6,318 nt of DNA from Thioalkalivibrio sp. (GTDB taxonomy: Bacteria > Pseudomonadota > Gammaproteobacteria > Ectothiorhodospirales > Ectothiorhodospiraceae). Positions within the stretch are counted from its first letter, which is position 1. The number at the start of each line of letters is the position of its first letter. The stretch lies in NCBI GenBank assembly GCA_007133115.1, contig SLNI01000212.1, positions 1 to 6,318 of the forward strand. The letters run 5' to 3'. The translations under genes and the position numbers were made by a program. The notes beneath the pieces are model-generated. The model was given only the letters and a program-made list of their open reading frames with translations, ran no database searches and was not told the origin of the DNA. Shown here in pieces: positions 1 to 6,318 of this stretch.

Positions 1-2055
1 CCCGTAATCGACGCCGATACCGACCGAGATCGCGATCACCGGCAAGGTGGATACCTTGAGGCCGATGCCGAGCAGGGCCATCAGCGCGCTGCACATCACC
101 GCAACGATCATCAGCGGCACCACGATGCACAGGGTCGCGCGCCAGGAACGGAACTCGGCGAAGAACAGCAGGCCGATGGTGCCGAAGACCAGCAGCAGGA
201 TGGTGACCGACGCCGCGTCGACGGCCTCGTTGGTGGCGGCCATCACCCCGACATTCCCGGATGCGAGCAGGAAGTCGAGTTCGGCGGAGCGATGCTGTTC
301 GCGGAAGCGTTTCACCTCGTCCACCACGTGTGCGATCGTCGCGCCGTCGTGATCCCGGGTGAAGATCAGCACCTGCATCGCACTGCAGTCGGTATTCAGA
401 AGGCCGGTTCCGGTATCCACGGGCGAGACGGCCTGCGACAGGATCGTCGGATTCCGCGAGAGCGCGCGCCAGGTCGGGTGTCCCTCGTTCCAGCCCGCAT
501 TGATCACCTTGGCCACACCGGGCAGTCCGATCACGGTCTGCACACCGTGGACGCCGCGCAGCGTGGTCTCGAACCGGTCGATGGTATCCATGATGTCGAA
601 GTCGGTGCAGGCGCCGTCGACGTCGTGGCTCTGCACGATCACGGAGAGCACGTTCACCCCGATCGAGAACGCGTCGGTGATCGCCCCGGAGTCGAGGTTG
701 TAGCGTGAGTCGGCACGCAATTCCGGGACGCCGGTGCCGAAGTCGCCGGTGCGCAGGTCGCGGGCCTGCCACACGGCCGCCAGCAGGATCACGGCCGTCA
801 GTGCCAGGACCACGCGTGCGTTGCGCGGCTCCACCAGGCGCTTGAGCCGTAGCCAGAGCCAGTCGCCCGCGTGTTCGCGGCGGGCCGCGCGTTCAACCTC
901 CCACGCGGGGAGCCGGGTCCAGGAGAGCAGCACGGTCAGCAGCAACAGGTTGGTGATCAGGATCAGCGCCACGCCCAATCCGGCCGTGAGCGCCAGCTCC
1001 CGCACCATGTCGATCTCGATGCGCATGATCACCAGGAACCCCACGGCGGTCGTGGTGAGGGCCATGGTTGCGGGGACGAAGAGCTTGCGGAAGGCGTTCC
1101 GGGCTGCCTCCAGGGGTACGGTGCCCGCGATCACTTCGAGGCGCCAGGCGTGGGTCATCTGCACGGCATGGCTGACGGCGATCGCGAAGATCAGGAAGGG
1201 CAGCAGAATGGACATCGGATCGATGCCGAATCCCAGCATCGGCAGCAGCCCCAGCAGCCAGGCCACCGGGATCATGGCGCTCACCAGCGTCAGCGCTGCG
1301 AGACGGGCGGATCCGGAGTACCAGAACAGCAGCAACGCGGTGATCGCAAACGACACGCCGAAGAACACCACCACGCCGCGGGCCCCGTCGGTGATATCGC
1401 CCACGGCCTTGGCGAAACCGATGATGTGGACGTTGACCCCGTCGCGCGCGTGGCGCGTGCGGATCTCCTCCAGTTGGGCCGCCACGCGCGGGAGGTCCAG
1501 CCGCGCGCCGGTCTCCGGATCGGTCCCGAGGAGTTCGGCGCTCACCAGCGCGCCCTGGTGATCGTTCGCCACCAGGCGGCCCACCTGCCCCGATTTGAGT
1601 ACGTTTTCCCGGACGGTGGCCAGTTCTGCCGGAGTGCCGCTGAACCCTGCGGGGATCACGTTGCCGCCGGCGAATCCGGCCTCCACGATTTCGATGAAGC
1701 GCACGTTCGGTGTGAACAGTGATGTCACCGTGGCGCGGTCCACGCCCGGGATGAAGAACACCTCGTCGGTCACCGACCGCAGGGTCTCAAGGAAGCGGGC
1801 GTCGTAGATTTCTCCTTCCTCCCGAATCAATGCCACGAGGATGCGGTTGGCGCCGCCAAAGCTGTCTCGGTAGGCCAGGAAGGTTTTCATGTACGCGTGC
1901 TGAAGCGGGATCATCTTCTCGAAGCCCGCATCCACCTGCAGCCGGGTTGCCGAAGCGACGAACACCAGCGTGGTCAGGACGAACACCGTGAGGAACGGAA
2001 CCCGCCAGGCGAACAGCCGATCCGCGCTGCGGTCGATGAATCCCCGGAATGTCAT
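1..2055 (-). CDS. RND/MMPL-family inner-membrane permease (3' end beyond window)
   Basis: Proton-driven RND-superfamily permease of the MMPL/COG1033 type, in the inner membrane. Reading from the ATG at 2055 gives 685 uninterrupted codons to base 1, ending GIGVDYG. Family members are usually about 750-800 residues, so roughly 100 are missing (rest of TM10, TM11, TM12 and tail). The visible topology fits the RND plan: TM1 (about 19-36), first periplasmic loop (37-225), TM2-TM6 (about 226-378), TM7 (about 412-428), second periplasmic loop (430-612), TM8-TM9 (about 613-662) and the start of TM10 (668-685). TM10 carries the GxDY motif whose Asp (683) is the expected proton-relay residue; the matching place in TM4 reads AVSHAVQ, with no Asp. 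C483 and C557 both lie in the second loop. No membrane-fusion protein or TolC-type channel gene is beside it, so classic tripartite drug efflux is unlikely. The context suggests movement of a hydrophobic substrate between membranes. Confidence 0.92.
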   Translation of the reverse strand, partial: MTFRGFIDRSADRLFAWRVPFLTVFVLTTLVFVASATRLQVDAGFEKMIPLQHAYMKTFLAYRDSFGGANRILVALIREEGEIYDARFLETLRSVTDEVFFIPGVDRATVTSLFTPNVRFIEIVEAGFAGGNVIPAGFSGTPAELATVRENVLKSGQVGRLVANDHQGALVSAELLGTDPETGARLDLPRVAAQLEEIRTRHARDGVNVHIIGFAKAVGDITDGARGVVVFFGVSFAITALLLFWYSGSARLAALTLVSAMIPVAWLLGLLPMLGFGIDPMSILLPFLIFAIAVSHAVQMTHAWRLEVIAGTVPLEAARNAFRKLFVPATMALTTTAVGFLVIMRIEIDMVRELALTAGLGVALILITNLLLLTVLLSWTRLPAWEVERAARREHAGDWLWLRLKRLVEPRNARVVLALTAVILLAAVWQARDLRTGDFGTGVPELRADSRYNLDSGAITDAFSIGVNVLSVIVQSHDVDGACTDFDIMDTIDRFETTLRGVHGVQTVIGLPGVAKVINAGWNEGHPTWRALSRNPTILSQAVSPVDTGTGLLNTDCSAMQVLIFTRDHDGATIAHVVDEVKRFREQHRSAELDFLLASGNVGVMAATNEAVDAASVTILLLVFGTIGLLFFAEFRSWRATLCIVVPLMIVAVMCSALMALLGIGLKVSTLPVIAISVGIGVDYG

Positions 2056-2085
2056 GGCGTGTCTGCGGGGTTCATGGTCCCCTCC
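2052..2085 (-). promoter_or_regulatory. Coupled stop/start (ATGA) with a strong upstream Shine-Dalgarno
   Basis: The propeller gene stops with TGA at 2054-2052 and the RND permease starts with ATG at 2055-2053, sharing four bases. The 12 bases just before that ATG hold no Shine-Dalgarno sequence. The nearest good one is GGAGGGG at 2085-2079, inside the propeller gene and too far away for ordinary initiation. This points to translational coupling: ribosomes ending the propeller gene restart on the permease. Confidence 0.7.
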
Positions 2086-3035
2086 AGGATCCATTCCTGA
2101 ACCCCGTCTTCGCCAAACAGCAGGTAGCGTCCAGGTGTTTCGGTCGCCAGCAGGGTTGTCCACAGGTTGCCGGAAGGGGAGGGCAGCCGCTGCAGGCTCT
2201 GGCCATGGTCGGCACTGACCCGAACCGTGCCGTTCTGCCCCACGAGAAAGACCCGACCGTCCGGTGTTACGCGACCGCCGAACAGCGAAGCCTGCGTGTC
2301 GCTGTCGACTTCTTCCCAGGAGTCACCCCGATCGCGGGACCGGAACACGTGGCCGCGCATGCCATACAGCAGAAGCGCGCCATCCGCAGTGGCCAGAACG
2401 CCGAAAAACGACCCCGCGTAGGGTGTGTCCAGTGCCGACCAGTTCGTGCCGTGATCGTCGGAGCGAAGTAATGTGCCGGCTTCACCCGCGATGAATCGAT
2501 CGGCTTCGATGGCTGCCATTGCGTTGAGATGAAGCTCGTTCGCGTCGGGATCGTTCCGGGTCCAGGTCCGCCCCGCGTCCTCGCTCGTCATCAGGCGACC
2601 ATAGGCACCCAGGGCAAAGCCCCGGCCCTTCGCGTCGAACTGTACCGCCAGCAACGGTTCCGCGTCATCCGGCGCCGAGAACACTTCGGACCAGGTCTCG
2701 CCGCGGTCGTCGCTGCGCAGGATCCGTGCGTCGTGGCCCACCGCGACCAGTGTCTGGTGATCGACGACGGCCAGGGCCGTGAGCAGGGTCTCGAATGGGT
2801 TCGCGGCTCGACGCCACTGGTGTCCGTCGTCGTCCGAAAGAAAAATATGCCCCCGCTCGCCGACCGCGACGATGCGCAGTCCGATCCGCTGCGCATCCAG
2901 CATCAGCAGGTGTTCGATCCGCACCTCCGTGGCCGGCATCGGGGGGGCGGGGCGCTGGGAGAAGGTAAACCCCACGGCCGCGACGACGAGGACAACGAAC
3001 AGGATTCCCGGAAAACGACGCATCACCGTTGGCAC
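2052..3035 (-). CDS. Membrane-anchored BNR/Asp-box (YCF48-like) beta-propeller protein
   Basis: 327-residue protein with an N-terminal hydrophobic segment (about 8-25) that is either an uncleaved anchor or a signal peptide, then a periplasmic beta-propeller. Asp-box motifs of the form S-x-D-x-G-x-x-W occur at 67-74, 108-115, 151-158, 192-199, 233-240 and, with the Trp replaced by Leu, 274-281. Each is preceded by a strand ending in a G-x-x-G-type turn. Blade spacing is 41, 43, 41, 41 and 41 residues. A seventh unit (LLFGEDGVQEW, 305-315) has lost the box, which fits a seven-bladed propeller. Such YCF48/BNR proteins generally act as scaffolds or assembly factors; the sialidase label some carry is not supported, as I see no sialidase FRIP motif. 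The 3035 start codon is GTG with a weak GAGG 13 nt upstream (3052-3049); the ATG at 3023 (fifth codon) is a real alternative that keeps the hydrophobic segment. The gene ends in an ATGA overlap with the RND permease, suggesting a partnership with it. Confidence 0.87.
   Translation of the reverse strand: MPTVMRRFPGILFVVLVVAAVGFTFSQRPAPPMPATEVRIEHLLMLDAQRIGLRIVAVGERGHIFLSDDDGHQWRRAANPFETLLTALAVVDHQTLVAVGHDARILRSDDRGETWSEVFSAPDDAEPLLAVQFDAKGRGFALGAYGRLMTSEDAGRTWTRNDPDANELHLNAMAAIEADRFIAGEAGTLLRSDDHGTNWSALDTPYAGSFFGVLATADGALLLYGMRGHVFRSRDRGDSWEEVDSDTQASLFGGRVTPDGRVFLVGQNGTVRVSADHGQSLQRLPSPSGNLWTTLLATETPGRYLLFGEDGVQEWILEGTMNPADTP
2193..2837 (-). repeat. Six tandem Asp-box repeats within the propeller gene
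   Basis: Six protein-level repeats of about 41 residues are coded here, seen as SDDDGHQW, SDDRGETW, SEDAGRTW, SDDHGTNW, SRDRGDSW and SADHGQSL. They are diverged at DNA level, so this is an old structural repeat and not a recent tandem duplication. Confidence 0.85.
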
Positions 3036-3064
3036 GGGCGGGTCCGAACCTCGCGTCGTTTCGG

Positions 3065-4414
3065 TCAGCGGGTGCCGATGCCGCGCAATCCCGACGGGGT
3101 GAAGCGCGCGGGCCGAGGCTCCGTCGCCACGTAGACCCGGGGTTCGTCATTGCGCAGACCCATCGCGATATAGCGGCCGGACTGCAGGTCGTGATGTACC
3201 TCGAGCGACGGGTACTGCATCGGGATGTCGTAGAAATTGATGTTGTGCTGCTCGGCTACACGCCAGAGCTGGTCGCGGGCATCGTACTTGTCCACCACCA
3301 GCGCCATCCAGGAGTCCTCGTCGAGGTAGAAGGTCCGACGCTTGTAGATGTGGCTGGTGCCGTCCTTCAGTCGGGCATCCACCACCCAGACCCGGTGCAA
3401 CTCGTAGCGGGTGTGTTCCGGGTTCAAGTGACCCGCCTGCAACACGTCGCCCATCGCAATGGTATCGCCGACCAGGCGATAGGAGTTGTAGGGCACGAAG
3501 ATCTCGCGCTTGCCCACCAGCTCCCAGTCGTAGCGGTCGATGGCGCCGTTGAACATGATGAAATCATCGTTGGTGCGCAGTCCGTCCGCCGCGGTGCCCG
3601 GGTTGTCGTAGGCCACGTTCGGCGCCAGGCGAACCCGGCGTTGCCCCGGGTTGTAGGTCCAGGCCTGACGCGAATCCAGAAACTCGTGAACCAGCAGGAT
3701 CTGTCCGGCCAGGCGCGCCGGCGCGGTTACGTTCTGCAGGAAATTGGCGATCTTCTTTGGCTCGATCTGGTCCGGGGACTTGCTCAGGCTGCCGTAATGG
3801 AAGTCGTACTCGTAGTCGAACCGCACCGGGGTGTAGTTGCCGGTGCGGGTCACCGCCGCCTGGCTCCAGTTCATCAGGTAGGACTCACCCCGGTAACGAA
3901 CCAGATGGTTCCAGATCGCTTCTGCCCCGCTCTTTGGCATGGGGAATGGAATGCCACCGGTGGTCCCCTCGAAGGTGAGTCCATCTTGAGCCATCGAAAC
4001 CCGGGTCGCGTTGGCCCGGTTCTGTTCGTAATGCCCTTCGGGAAAAGCCGCGCTGCGACGCGTCGGGTAAATGTTCATCTTCCAGCTGGGGTAGGTCTCC
4101 AGCATCGCGACCTGACCTGGGGTCAAAAAGTCGCGGTACGCGTCCAGGTTGCTTGCGTCGATGGTGAACAGGATTGCGTCATCGGCGAAGGGGTCCGGAT
4201 AGTGATCGCCCGGAACGTGGCCTTCGGGCGCGCGGGTCAGGCCGCCCTCCCAGGCCGGAATGGTGCCCGCCGCGTTGCCCGCACGCTCGGCGCCCATGGG
4301 AGTCAGATCTTCCCCGAGTCGGGCGGCCTCGGCCTCCGGAACCTGCGCGTGAGCCAGTGCAGTCGACAGGATCAGCAGCACGGCCGCCGCGAGAAGTGTG
4401 CTTGGGTTGAACAT
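3065..4414 (-). CDS. DUF1329 periplasmic protein, LolA/LolB-like carrier candidate
   Basis: Complete 449-residue member of the DUF1329 family (PF07044), near the usual family length. Residues 1-23 form a Sec signal peptide (hydrophobic core 7-20, likely cut after AHA at 23), so the mature protein is periplasmic. The whole chain has no cysteine, so it cannot be a lipoprotein. Recognised family blocks are GTIPAWEGG (50-58), YPTRRSAAFPEG (116-127), FPMPKSGAEAIWNH (157-170), RQAWTYNPGQRRVR (249-262) running into APNVAYDNPGT (264-274), DRYDWELVGKREIFVPYN (293-310), and ARFTPSGLRG near the C-terminus. DUF1329 proteins are often annotated as related to outer-membrane lipoprotein-sorting proteins, because they are thought to share the LolA/LolB-type open barrel that holds an acyl chain. 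On that basis a shuttle between the inner-membrane permease and the outer-membrane DUF1302 barrel is the likely role; this is inference. It follows DUF1302 by 30 nt and precedes the propeller gene by 29 nt. Confidence 0.93.
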   Translation of the reverse strand: MFNPSTLLAAAVLLILSTALAHAQVPEAEAARLGEDLTPMGAERAGNAAGTIPAWEGGLTRAPEGHVPGDHYPDPFADDAILFTIDASNLDAYRDFLTPGQVAMLETYPSWKMNIYPTRRSAAFPEGHYEQNRANATRVSMAQDGLTFEGTTGGIPFPMPKSGAEAIWNHLVRYRGESYLMNWSQAAVTRTGNYTPVRFDYEYDFHYGSLSKSPDQIEPKKIANFLQNVTAPARLAGQILLVHEFLDSRQAWTYNPGQRRVRLAPNVAYDNPGTAADGLRTNDDFIMFNGAIDRYDWELVGKREIFVPYNSYRLVGDTIAMGDVLQAGHLNPEHTRYELHRVWVVDARLKDGTSHIYKRRTFYLDEDSWMALVVDKYDARDQLWRVAEQHNINFYDIPMQYPSLEVHHDLQSGRYIAMGLRNDEPRVYVATEPRPARFTPSGLRGIGTR

Positions 4415-4424
4415 GGGTCTCGAG

Positions 4425-4429
4425 CTCCT
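4425..4429 (-). promoter_or_regulatory. Ribosome binding site of the DUF1329 gene
   Basis: AGGAG reads on the minus strand at 4429-4425, ten bases before the ATG at 4414-4412. It lies in the 30-nt gap after the DUF1302 stop codon, which is too short for an obvious promoter. This start is also supported by the signal peptide that begins right after it. Confidence 0.7.
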
Positions 4430-4444
4430 GAATGCCTGGGTTGC

Positions 4445-6318
4445 TCAGAACGAGTAGCTGACGCTGATCGCGAGGAAATCACGATCCTTGAGCGGGTTGG
4501 TGCTGCTGGCGTAGCTCCGTGCCTGTCCGGCGGGATTGGGGGCGGGGTCGGTCCCGCGGATCTCCCTGCCGCCGAAGAACGAGGTGTAGGCGATGTCCGC
4601 CTGCCAGCGCTGCAGGTAGTTCACGCCCAGGCCCAACGTCAATGCCTTGGCGCCTGCATTGAACGTCGGGCTGCGCCCGCTGACATCATGCGAGAAGCCG
4701 ATGCGCGGCAGCAGGGTCGCCGCCCCCAGCGCATTCGGATACTCGAACCGGCCGAGCAAGCGGTAGCCCCAGGAGTCCTTGGTTGCGAAACAGCCGGAAT
4801 CGGTGGAGCCGAAGGCTGCCGCCGCCGATGATCCGGGTTGCGGGAGATGGCAACCGGCCGCGGCAAACTCGAGGCCCGATGGAAGCTCGAGCCGCGTATA
4901 CCCGAGCTCGCCCACCAGGACCAGCTGGTCTGCGCCCAGGAATTGCGGTACCGCCTTGGTGCCGGTGAGCTGCAGTTGGTGCATGCCGACCCTGCGGTAG
5001 CCCTGGATCTCCTCGCCGTAGGGAACCGCGAACGCCTGGTTCGGGTTGGTCGAGGTGACCTGGTTCGCCAGTCCGAGTGCCGCATTCAGGATCTCGGCGG
5101 AGGGCAGTTGCACCGGCTGGTTGCGGCGGTAGGAATACTCCCCCTGAAGGGCGCTGTCGGCCGGACCGGCGGTGTTGAAACTCACGCCGAGCAACTGGAT
5201 GTCCTTAGGATATTCAACGAAATAACTGCCCTGCGGTGAGGCGCCCGATCGCGCGGCCAGGCCCTGCGCCGCCTGGCAGGCCACGCGTGTCGCGGAGACC
5301 GCGTCCCCGGTCTGCTGGAACACCTGCCCGAAGGTGGGCACATCAAAAACCTGGCACCCGGGAACGATGGTGGCATCCGTCGTGATCCCGCCGCGATAGC
5401 CCGATACGAACGGAGTGCGGCTGTGGTAGTTCGCGAAATAAAAGCCGAACTCGGTGAAATTGAGGTCCGGCGCGAAGGCTCGGAGCGCGAACCCGTATTC
5501 ATCGCCCGAGCTCGGCTCGCGGTCGGCCGACCGCGGTGCGATCAGGCGTGCGGTGGGGCTGAGCGGGAATACACCCGCAGGGCCATTGGCGTCATTGCGG
5601 CGGCCATACCCGGTATAGGCATTGTCTCCGCCGGTGGCGACGAAATCGTTCGTGCTGAAAAAAGTCCCGACCGGTTCGAGCCGGGTCTTGTCCCACTCCG
5701 CGATCCAGACGCCTTCCAGCGCAACGTTGTCGGTGAGCGCGTGTGAGCCCCAGAGCATCCCGACCGGCATCAGGCCCTCGCGGAGTTCCGAGCCCGGAAT
5801 GCGCAGCCGGGTGACGTTGATCGGGTTGAGCACGTTGATGCCGTTCTGGATGAACGTGCTCTCGCCCCAGCTGACCACCTGTCGCCCGGCACGCAGGTTC
5901 AGGTCACGCCCCCCCACATCGAAGCGGCCGCGCACGAAGGCATCGAGGATCTCGGCGTCCCGGCCCGCCTCGTCGCGGGCGGCGCGGCTCAGCTCGTTCT
6001 TGTTCCAGATGGCATCGTCGTAGAAATACGATGCGCGCAGAAAACCGCCGAAATTCCGGTAGTCGAGCTCGAGGTCATGGGTCACCTTGACCGCCGAGGA
6101 AACCAGGTCACCGCGATCGTAGTTCAGGTTGCCGTCGTCGGCGTTCGGGTCACGCGAGGTGCCGCCGTTGGCGATACTGACCAGGGTCGGATCGCGACTC
6201 TCCATGCGCCACAGGGCGCCCAGCGAGACCGTGGTGTCGAAACTGCCCCGCAGTTCGCCGTCCTCGCTGGAGAATTCGAAGGCCTGTCCCGGTGCCGCGC
6301 CGCCCAGCGCACAGGCAA
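4445..6318 (-). CDS. DUF1302 family outer-membrane protein (5' end beyond window)
   Basis: Probable outer-membrane beta-barrel of the DUF1302 family (PF06980), the likely outer-membrane part of the system encoded by this operon. The frame is open to the window edge; 623 residues are visible. Upstream of the first in-frame ATG (base 6205) it reads ACALGGAAPGQA-FEF, the end of a signal peptide with a likely cut after GQA (visible residue 12). Roughly 10-20 N-terminal residues are therefore missing, and the ATG at 6205 is not the start. Family hallmarks are GRQVVSWGEST (145-155), NGINVLNPINVTRLR (158-172), EPVGTFFSTND (214-224), TEFGFYFANYHSRTP (288-302) and YSYRRNQPVQ (394-403). The protein ends in ...SVSYSF, a C-terminal phenylalanine after alternating hydrophobic residues, as expected for a Bam-inserted barrel. 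Four cysteines (321, 347, 489, 509) fall in two close pairs. Substrate is unknown. The family call is firm; the barrel and transport role are inferred. Confidence 0.93.
   Translation of the reverse strand, partial: ACALGGAAPGQAFEFSSEDGELRGSFDTTVSLGALWRMESRDPTLVSIANGGTSRDPNADDGNLNYDRGDLVSSAVKVTHDLELDYRNFGGFLRASYFYDDAIWNKNELSRAARDEAGRDAEILDAFVRGRFDVGGRDLNLRAGRQVVSWGESTFIQNGINVLNPINVTRLRIPGSELREGLMPVGMLWGSHALTDNVALEGVWIAEWDKTRLEPVGTFFSTNDFVATGGDNAYTGYGRRNDANGPAGVFPLSPTARLIAPRSADREPSSGDEYGFALRAFAPDLNFTEFGFYFANYHSRTPFVSGYRGGITTDATIVPGCQVFDVPTFGQVFQQTGDAVSATRVACQAAQGLAARSGASPQGSYFVEYPKDIQLLGVSFNTAGPADSALQGEYSYRRNQPVQLPSAEILNAALGLANQVTSTNPNQAFAVPYGEEIQGYRRVGMHQLQLTGTKAVPQFLGADQLVLVGELGYTRLELPSGLEFAAAGCHLPQPGSSAAAAFGSTDSGCFATKDSWGYRLLGRFEYPNALGAATLLPRIGFSHDVSGRSPTFNAGAKALTLGLGVNYLQRWQADIAYTSFFGGREIRGTDPAPNPAGQARSYASSTNPLKDRDFLAISVSYSF

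Follow-up and report, generated by a model that had tools for sequence, protein, structure and literature searches.

Proteins of the DUF1302, DUF1329, YCF48-type propeller and RND permease families have already been described as a set in papers of 2018, 2019, 2024 and 2026, and the cassette on a contig of Thioalkalivibrio sp. (SLNI01000212.1, GenBank assembly GCA_007133115.1) is therefore a further AmeABCD-type case. The AmeABCD system of Castellaniella defragrans 65Phen, published in 2018, comprises the same set in the same order, namely a DUF1302 protein, a DUF1329 protein of the LolA superfamily, a COG4447 propeller and an HAE3 RND permease, and in the available text it has neither a fusion protein nor TolC; it differs from the present cassette in its location in a monoterpene island and its tie to monoterpenes, the likeness being judged by families and order (PMC6394551). 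Deletion of ameABCD resulted in poorer growth on, and tolerance of, non-functionalised monoterpenes (monoterpene hydrocarbons) and in a slight increase of Nile Red accumulation in cells treated with carbonyl cyanide m-chlorophenyl hydrazone, and growth of the mutant on perillyl alcohol, aldehyde and acid was normal (PMC6394551). The same four families (COG4447-COG1033-PF07044-DUF1302) form one operon under AphR/AphS/AphT in some Betaproteobacteria, for which a role against toxic aromatics was proposed in 2019; unlike in the relatives described below, this operon is co-controlled with aromatic catabolism, and no PsrA-type link is reported in the available text (PMC6449761). In Pseudomonas putida, a common Tween 20 phenotype unites PP_0765, PP_0766, PP_2018 and PP_2019, which comprise a DUF1302 protein, a DUF1329 protein, a periplasmic protein and an efflux transporter; they occupy two separate loci rather than one operon, and co-folding suggests that DUF1329 contacts the barrel and the transporter weakly and that the periplasmic protein contacts the transporter strongly (PMC10866462). 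Finally, a cluster of a benzene degrader, reported in 2026, lists DUF1329, YCF48 and MMPL proteins (PMC13101534).

The present cassette differs from AmeABCD in its Thioalkalivibrio-type host and in its near relatives, which carry PsrA-type and beta-oxidation genes. We interpret the ameABCD-type cassette as a proton-driven trans-envelope exporter of a hydrophobic, probably fatty-acid-like molecule, an explanation to which we assign slightly less than an even chance. It is supported by the fixed gene order, the LolA- and OprD-like predicted folds, the PsrA-type TetR gene with its palindrome, the lipase-type neighbours, the Thioalkalivibrio carriers lacking FadE and a strong FadB domain, the retention of an Asp-Tyr pair in transmembrane helix 10 (TM10) of the permease, and the phenotypes of the AmeABCD deletion (PMC6394551).

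Gene content, predicted folds and distribution of the cassette

The window, i.e., the whole stretch of DNA analysed (6318 bp), is the entire contig of a fragmented assembly (1.61 Mb in 288 contigs, 80.75% complete), and because the contig stops there, both end genes are cut, with the start of gene A and the end of gene D missing. Its surroundings in its own genome being unreachable for the same reason, synteny was read in relatives. Four open frames, all on the minus strand, fill the window with gaps of 30, 29 and -4 nt, which reproduces the four co-directional genes and the spacing of the original prediction, made from the sequence alone; Pfam and NCBIfam matches likewise uphold its four families, those of the RND permease lying below their cut-offs, and the four-gene set is confirmed as real. 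The wording "complete" for the pathway holds for the presence of all four families, but not for the DUF1302 start and the RND end, which are truncated. The features are as follows:

4445..6316, minus strand: gene A, ameA-like, DUF1302 outer-membrane barrel (PF06980, 550.8 bits); 623 aa visible, frame open from 6316, 5' end and start cut off
3065..4414, minus strand: gene B, ameB-like, DUF1329 protein, candidate periplasmic LolA-like carrier (PF07044, 472.9 bits; LolA_like PF17131, 36.8 bits); 449 aa, complete
2052..3035, minus strand: gene C, ameC-like, YCF48/BNR-type beta-propeller (PSII_BNR (YCF48) PF14870, 68.6 bits, and further BNR-type families); 327 aa
1..2055, minus strand: gene D, ameD-like, HAE3-like RND permease (best NCBIfam match TIGR00921 (HAE3), 120.4 bits, below the cut-off of 351.9); 685 aa visible, 3' end cut off
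1168..1173, minus strand: Ser295-His296 of the RND permease, in transmembrane helix 4 (TM4), one half of the proton-relay region; Ser-His present in all 120 nearest relatives
4..9, minus strand: Asp683-Tyr684 of the RND permease, the TM10 half; Asp-Tyr in 119 of 120 nearest relatives, with one gap

In the proposed mechanism, protons flowing through Asp683-Tyr684, and perhaps His296, would power the RND permease (D) as it picks the molecule from the inner membrane. The anchored propeller (C) would serve as the docking piece between the permease and the carrier, the LolA-like DUF1329 protein (B), which would shuttle the molecule across the periplasm to its release by the OprD-like barrel (A). 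The outward direction is favoured because RND permeases, known as exporters, usually work outward. The analysis itself shows the gene order, the families, the predicted folds, the conservation, the neighbours in relatives and the palindrome in most TetR-linked relatives; that the four products form a complex, what they move and in which direction, and that the TetR protein governs the cassette, we infer.

A PDB sequence search with the DUF1329, DUF1302 and RND proteins returned nothing meaningful, and predicted folds were used instead. Residues 159-449 of the DUF1329 protein have a LolA-like predicted fold, preceded by an extra N-terminal part (approximately residues 30-158), and DUF1302 has an OprD-like one, which bears out the LolA/LolB-type fold and the barrel proposed from the sequence. 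The DUF1329 protein thus resembles LolA/LolB in the fold of these residues, but is larger by its extra N-terminal part and paired with an RND permease rather than with LolCDE. As had also been predicted, neither the membrane-fusion-protein nor the TolC family occurs among the four genes of the window, which distinguishes the cassette from an HAE1 tripartite pump. The N-termini of the DUF1329 protein and of the propeller were judged by eye to be a signal peptide and a hydrophobic stretch, respectively. The propeller starts with GTG, and an alternative ATG at 3023 would widen the gap before it to 41 nt. A scan of the window revealed no promoter-like site, the operon start falling outside the contig. 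The closest named relative found, L003, is on a contig labelled Thioalkalivibrio paradoxus and has a 95% identical RND permease; compared with it, the window DUF1302 is about 24 residues short (623 vs 647 aa) and the window RND about 97 C-terminal residues short (685 vs 782 aa).

The class survey covered an even sample of 275 genomes (DUF1329 threshold E ≤ 1e-40, at most six candidates scored per genome) and found DUF1329 in 46 of them, at 88 or more places; the stretches around all 88, the window among them, were fetched. Rare co-occurrence of the four genes elsewhere would have spoken against a common pathway; they were contiguous, in the fixed order A-B-C-D and on one strand, in 31 of the 275 genomes (tallied by hand), that is, at 30 fetched loci in 30 genomes and in the window. 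In a 32nd genome, G307, the contig ends within gene C. The remaining 52 fetched class loci have DUF1329 alone, with DUF1302 only or in another order, or are second copies or truncated where a contig stops. Over all survey loci, contiguous A-B-C-D in order was found 52 times, or 46 times without six second copies of the same place, and because this order recurs, the four-gene arrangement is not due to chance. Adjacent copies of the four families, tandem, duplicated and in part reshuffled, were noted in G281 and G177 (L126, L127, L129 and L131), and variant arrangements (order B-A-D-C, gene A on the opposite strand, C-D facing A-B) occur at L109, L110, L105 and L118.

The RND permease and its putative proton relay

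The RND permease of the window falls below the family cut-offs tested, and the same is true of the full-length L003 protein: on TIGR00921 (HAE3) the latter reached 164.8 bits (cut-off 351.9), on the HpnN model the two scored 58.9 and 86.9 bits (cut-off 751.85), and on actII/MMPL (TIGR00833) 31.8 and 82.2 bits (cut-off 874.7), respectively. Pfam gave only two sub-cut-off matches, of sterol-sensing type. Proteins of the HpnN/MmpL type are RND permeases of the inner membrane and pass lipids on to the periplasm; the window protein differs from them in these scores, in its three partner genes and in the Ser-His pair of TM4. The proton relay looks asymmetric because Ser-His in TM4 and Asp-Tyr in TM10 are conserved, in contrast to MmpL3 and HpnN, which have acidic residues in both halves. 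In an alignment of 73 survey rows, which includes the reference and second copies, 66 have Ser-His with Asp-Tyr, one has Asp-Phe in TM10 and six are gapped at one or both sites. The retention of this asymmetry in distant survey relatives suggests a possible mark of the family. A weak internal alignment (19.6 bits) underlies the placing of Ser-His at the position of an acidic pair; at the apparently matching place of that alignment, a different RND beside the L096 cassette has Asp-Asp.

PsrA-type regulator, putative operator and neighbouring genes

A gene for a PsrA-type TetR protein (TetR_C_30 type, of a fatty-acid-sensor family) was found near the cassette in 10 of 17 named loci. On the NCBIfam PsrA model, whose cut-off is 300, six of these proteins reach 145-166 bits, and they are therefore termed PsrA-like rather than proven PsrA. 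Within 400 bp around the 5' edge of the open frame of gene A, the palindrome CAAAC-N4-GTTTG (at most one mismatch) is present in eight of nine TetR-linked cassettes (L005, L008, L009, L010, L011, L012, L013 and L014, with L085 as the sole exception), compared with 5 of 37 cassette loci without a PsrA-type TetR gene and 40 of 1840 random 400-bp windows from the same loci. It also precedes the TetR gene in all positive loci but L008, i.e., in seven of the eight. Among loci of about 3.3 kb fetched for the PsrA-type TetR alone, it was detected in L068 (exact), L066, L069 and L070 (one mismatch each), and not found in L065, L067 and L071. The palindrome fits the published PsrA site, C/GAAAC-N2-4-GTTTG/C, and PsrA responds to long-chain fatty acids (PMC13104628).

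A first operator scan had relied on the P. aeruginosa form (GAAAC half-sites, at most two mismatches) and gave 322 matches vs 229 in shuffled sequence; the CAAAC half-site was picked from these matches, counted, and only afterwards matched to the published form. Since the half-site was selected after inspection of the data and the positive loci are related, all eight representing about three lineages (the Thauera/Azoarcus group, one gammaproteobacterial metagenome-assembled genome and one Thioalkalivibrio), the p-values of about 1e-12 overstate the evidence. The literature on AmeABCD, and on the four families together with PsrA, yielded no PsrA link within a coverage that excludes most subscription journals. 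The PsrA-type link in near relatives is a new and testable proposal, in which the TetR protein would control the cassette. In two further Thioalkalivibrio genomes, G014 and G003, the palindrome lies upstream of gene A (L017, 2500-2513, and L057, 4675-4688) and no TetR_C_30 gene was found there; it may be a relic or a site for another regulator.

The presence of this palindrome and TetR gene in the nearest relatives, together with lipase and beta-oxidation neighbours, argues against a general solvent-tolerance exporter of terpenes, aromatics and similar small hydrophobes, for which the fatty-acid genes would reflect shared lipid or membrane-stress regulation and not the substrate. Such a pump would suit a lithotrophic host, the ring-hydroxylase gene adjoining the L115 cassette, the tie of AmeABCD to monoterpenes (PMC6394551), the AphR/AphS/AphT control shared with aromatic-degradation genes (PMC6449761) and the benzene-culture cluster (PMC13101534), and we regard it as rather improbable.

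FadE follows the TetR gene in six named loci (L005, L010, L011, L012, L013 and L014), accompanied by thiolase and FadB in four (L005, L010, L012 and L013), and a long-chain acyl-CoA ligase gene adjoins the PsrA-type TetR/cassette region of L018. In the class sample, a Lipase_bact_N-type gene is present at 8 of 30 cassette loci vs 1 of 52 other DUF1329 loci (p 0.001), a cluster that was noticed in cassette loci first and searched with a profile built from seven of them; PF12262 was confirmed for seven of the eight, the eighth (L093) having 106 bits on the home-made profile. The one lipase-positive locus outside the cassettes, L108, consists of a DUF1302-DUF1329 pair where a contig stops. At least one of lipase, FadE, FadB, FadD or thiolase was found at 10 of 30 class cassettes vs 3 of 52 other DUF1329 loci (p 0.003), and FadE by itself is not commoner near class cassettes (2/30 vs 1/52). 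The recurrence near lipid catabolism genes mentioned in the original prediction is seen at the lipase, FadE, FadB and thiolase loci, but not at the many class cassettes with unrelated neighbours. In the scanned subset, genes with no evident acyl-lipid role encode a DNA photolyase, HerA helicase, Ser/Thr kinases, a RelA/SpoT-type protein, GatB with an amidase, glutamate dehydrogenase, PAS histidine kinases and a sugar-type MFS protein.

A cassette that exports or assembles a surface lipase or a lipoprotein of the envelope, with DUF1329 in the role of LolA, would likewise be compatible with the lipase-type genes next to 8 of 30 class cassettes and with the LolA-like predicted fold. This reading is very improbable: the fetched stretches of the other 22 class cassettes contain no lipase neighbour, none is present among the ten L003 neighbours scanned, and the AmeABCD phenotypes concern small molecules (PMC6394551).

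Several other neighbours were recorded. A wax ester synthase/diacylglycerol acyltransferase gene lies directly 3' of the RND gene at L098 (13980-15389), a gene for a Ser/Thr kinase that carries a cyclic-nucleotide-binding domain lies immediately upstream of gene A in two class genomes (L087, 5951-7237; L095, 12666-13958), and at three class loci, L074, L075 and L076, gene A faces away from a divergently oriented gene for a long PAS histidine kinase (family taken from the one scanned).

Thioalkalivibrio carriers and the direction of transport

Full-length DUF1329 (E < 1e-100) is encoded in 8 of 30 genomes of the genus, and in the seven carriers other than the window the cassette genes were observed beside it. 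G019 is a probable ninth carrier, since its contig, matching L007 by coordinates, has genes C and D and the TetR gene and stops before B. FadE was found in none of the eight, six of which are at least 96% complete, nor was a strong FadB domain, the best 3HCDH_N match being 3.2e-5 among at most 48 candidates scored per genome (part of the candidates only in G014, G015, G016, G017 and G027). Three other genomes, G009, G011 and G018, have 3HCDH_N matches better than 1e-40 and no full-length DUF1329. Within the genus, the FadE difference (0/8 carriers vs 2/22 others) is not significant. A total lack of acyl-CoA dehydrogenases in the carriers was rejected, as G014 and G016 each have one short Acyl-CoA_dh_N match (E 2.1e-15 and 2.7e-13). 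A FadD search in 14 Thioalkalivibrio genomes gave only weak AMP-binding relatives, the best in carrier G014 (32% identity, 2.2e-47), and neither presence nor absence is claimed. Judging by gene content, it is unlikely that the cassette feeds classical beta-oxidation in these Thioalkalivibrio; it would persist in organisms for which fatty acids are an unlikely food, and G016 has the PsrA-type TetR gene and palindrome despite lacking FadE and FadB. The Thioalkalivibrio cassette is patchy and its neighbours differ among genomes (L003, L004, L006 and L008), which hints at repeated gain or movement within the genus.

These eight carriers count against inward transport, in which fatty acids or other hydrophobes freed outside, e.g., by a surface lipase, would be passed to the inner membrane for use, as does the outward action known for RND permeases. 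FadE is somewhat commoner in class carriers, G307 counted, than in other genomes (25/32 vs 139/243, p 0.034), so that outside Thioalkalivibrio FadE and the cassette often meet, which favours import, as do the lipase-type genes at 8 of 30 class cassettes and the FadE, thiolase and FadB genes of the named loci. The P. putida homologues are required for Tween 20 (PMC10866462), whereas the ameABCD mutant was normal on the three perillyl compounds and accumulated more Nile Red (PMC6394551). Import is on balance unlikely, yet the lipase neighbours and the Tween phenotype make it a serious rival.

Export of a fatty-acid-like molecule has several observations against it. The RND permease has no acidic residue in TM4; L003, the closest relative of the window, has no operator (best site with four mismatches) and no acyl-lipid gene among its ten neighbours scanned; no PsrA-type TetR (TetR_C_30) gene was found in G000 or G015, the window's own branch; and in the class sample only 1 of 30 cassettes has such a gene nearby. 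The substrates reported in the literature are terpenes and aromatics (PMC6394551, PMC6449761), real-time Nile Red efflux kinetics were almost identical in the ameABCD mutant (PMC6394551), and the lipase neighbours with the Tween 20 phenotype (PMC10866462) fit import equally well. The fatty-acid part of the proposal therefore rests on relatives, and the substrate in the window's own branch is extrapolated. The original prediction of a trans-envelope pathway for a hydrophobic molecule finds partial support in the folds, the conserved order and the published AmeABCD phenotypes (PMC6394551), while for direction and substrate we can only infer.

The passage of hydrophobic molecules across the Gram-negative periplasm is understood for few systems, and this cassette, although widespread (31/275 class genomes), is covered by only one whole-operon deletion study found in the literature. 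Authors link it variously to monoterpenes, aromatics, benzene or Tween (PMC6394551, PMC6449761, PMC13101534, PMC10866462), whereas the PsrA-type operator and the lipase neighbours lead to a specific, testable proposal with fatty acids as core substrate. In its broadest form, which we consider doubtful, the proposal is of a general proton-driven trans-envelope path taken by fatty acids and similar hydrophobes, with the anchored beta-propeller and a LolA-like shuttle in place of fusion protein and TolC, a PsrA-type switch in part of its range and an asymmetric Ser-His/Asp-Tyr relay; in lithotrophs that lack FadE and FadB, the cassette would act as a relief valve for fatty acids. Thioalkalivibrio carriers lacking both are a natural place to separate export from feeding.

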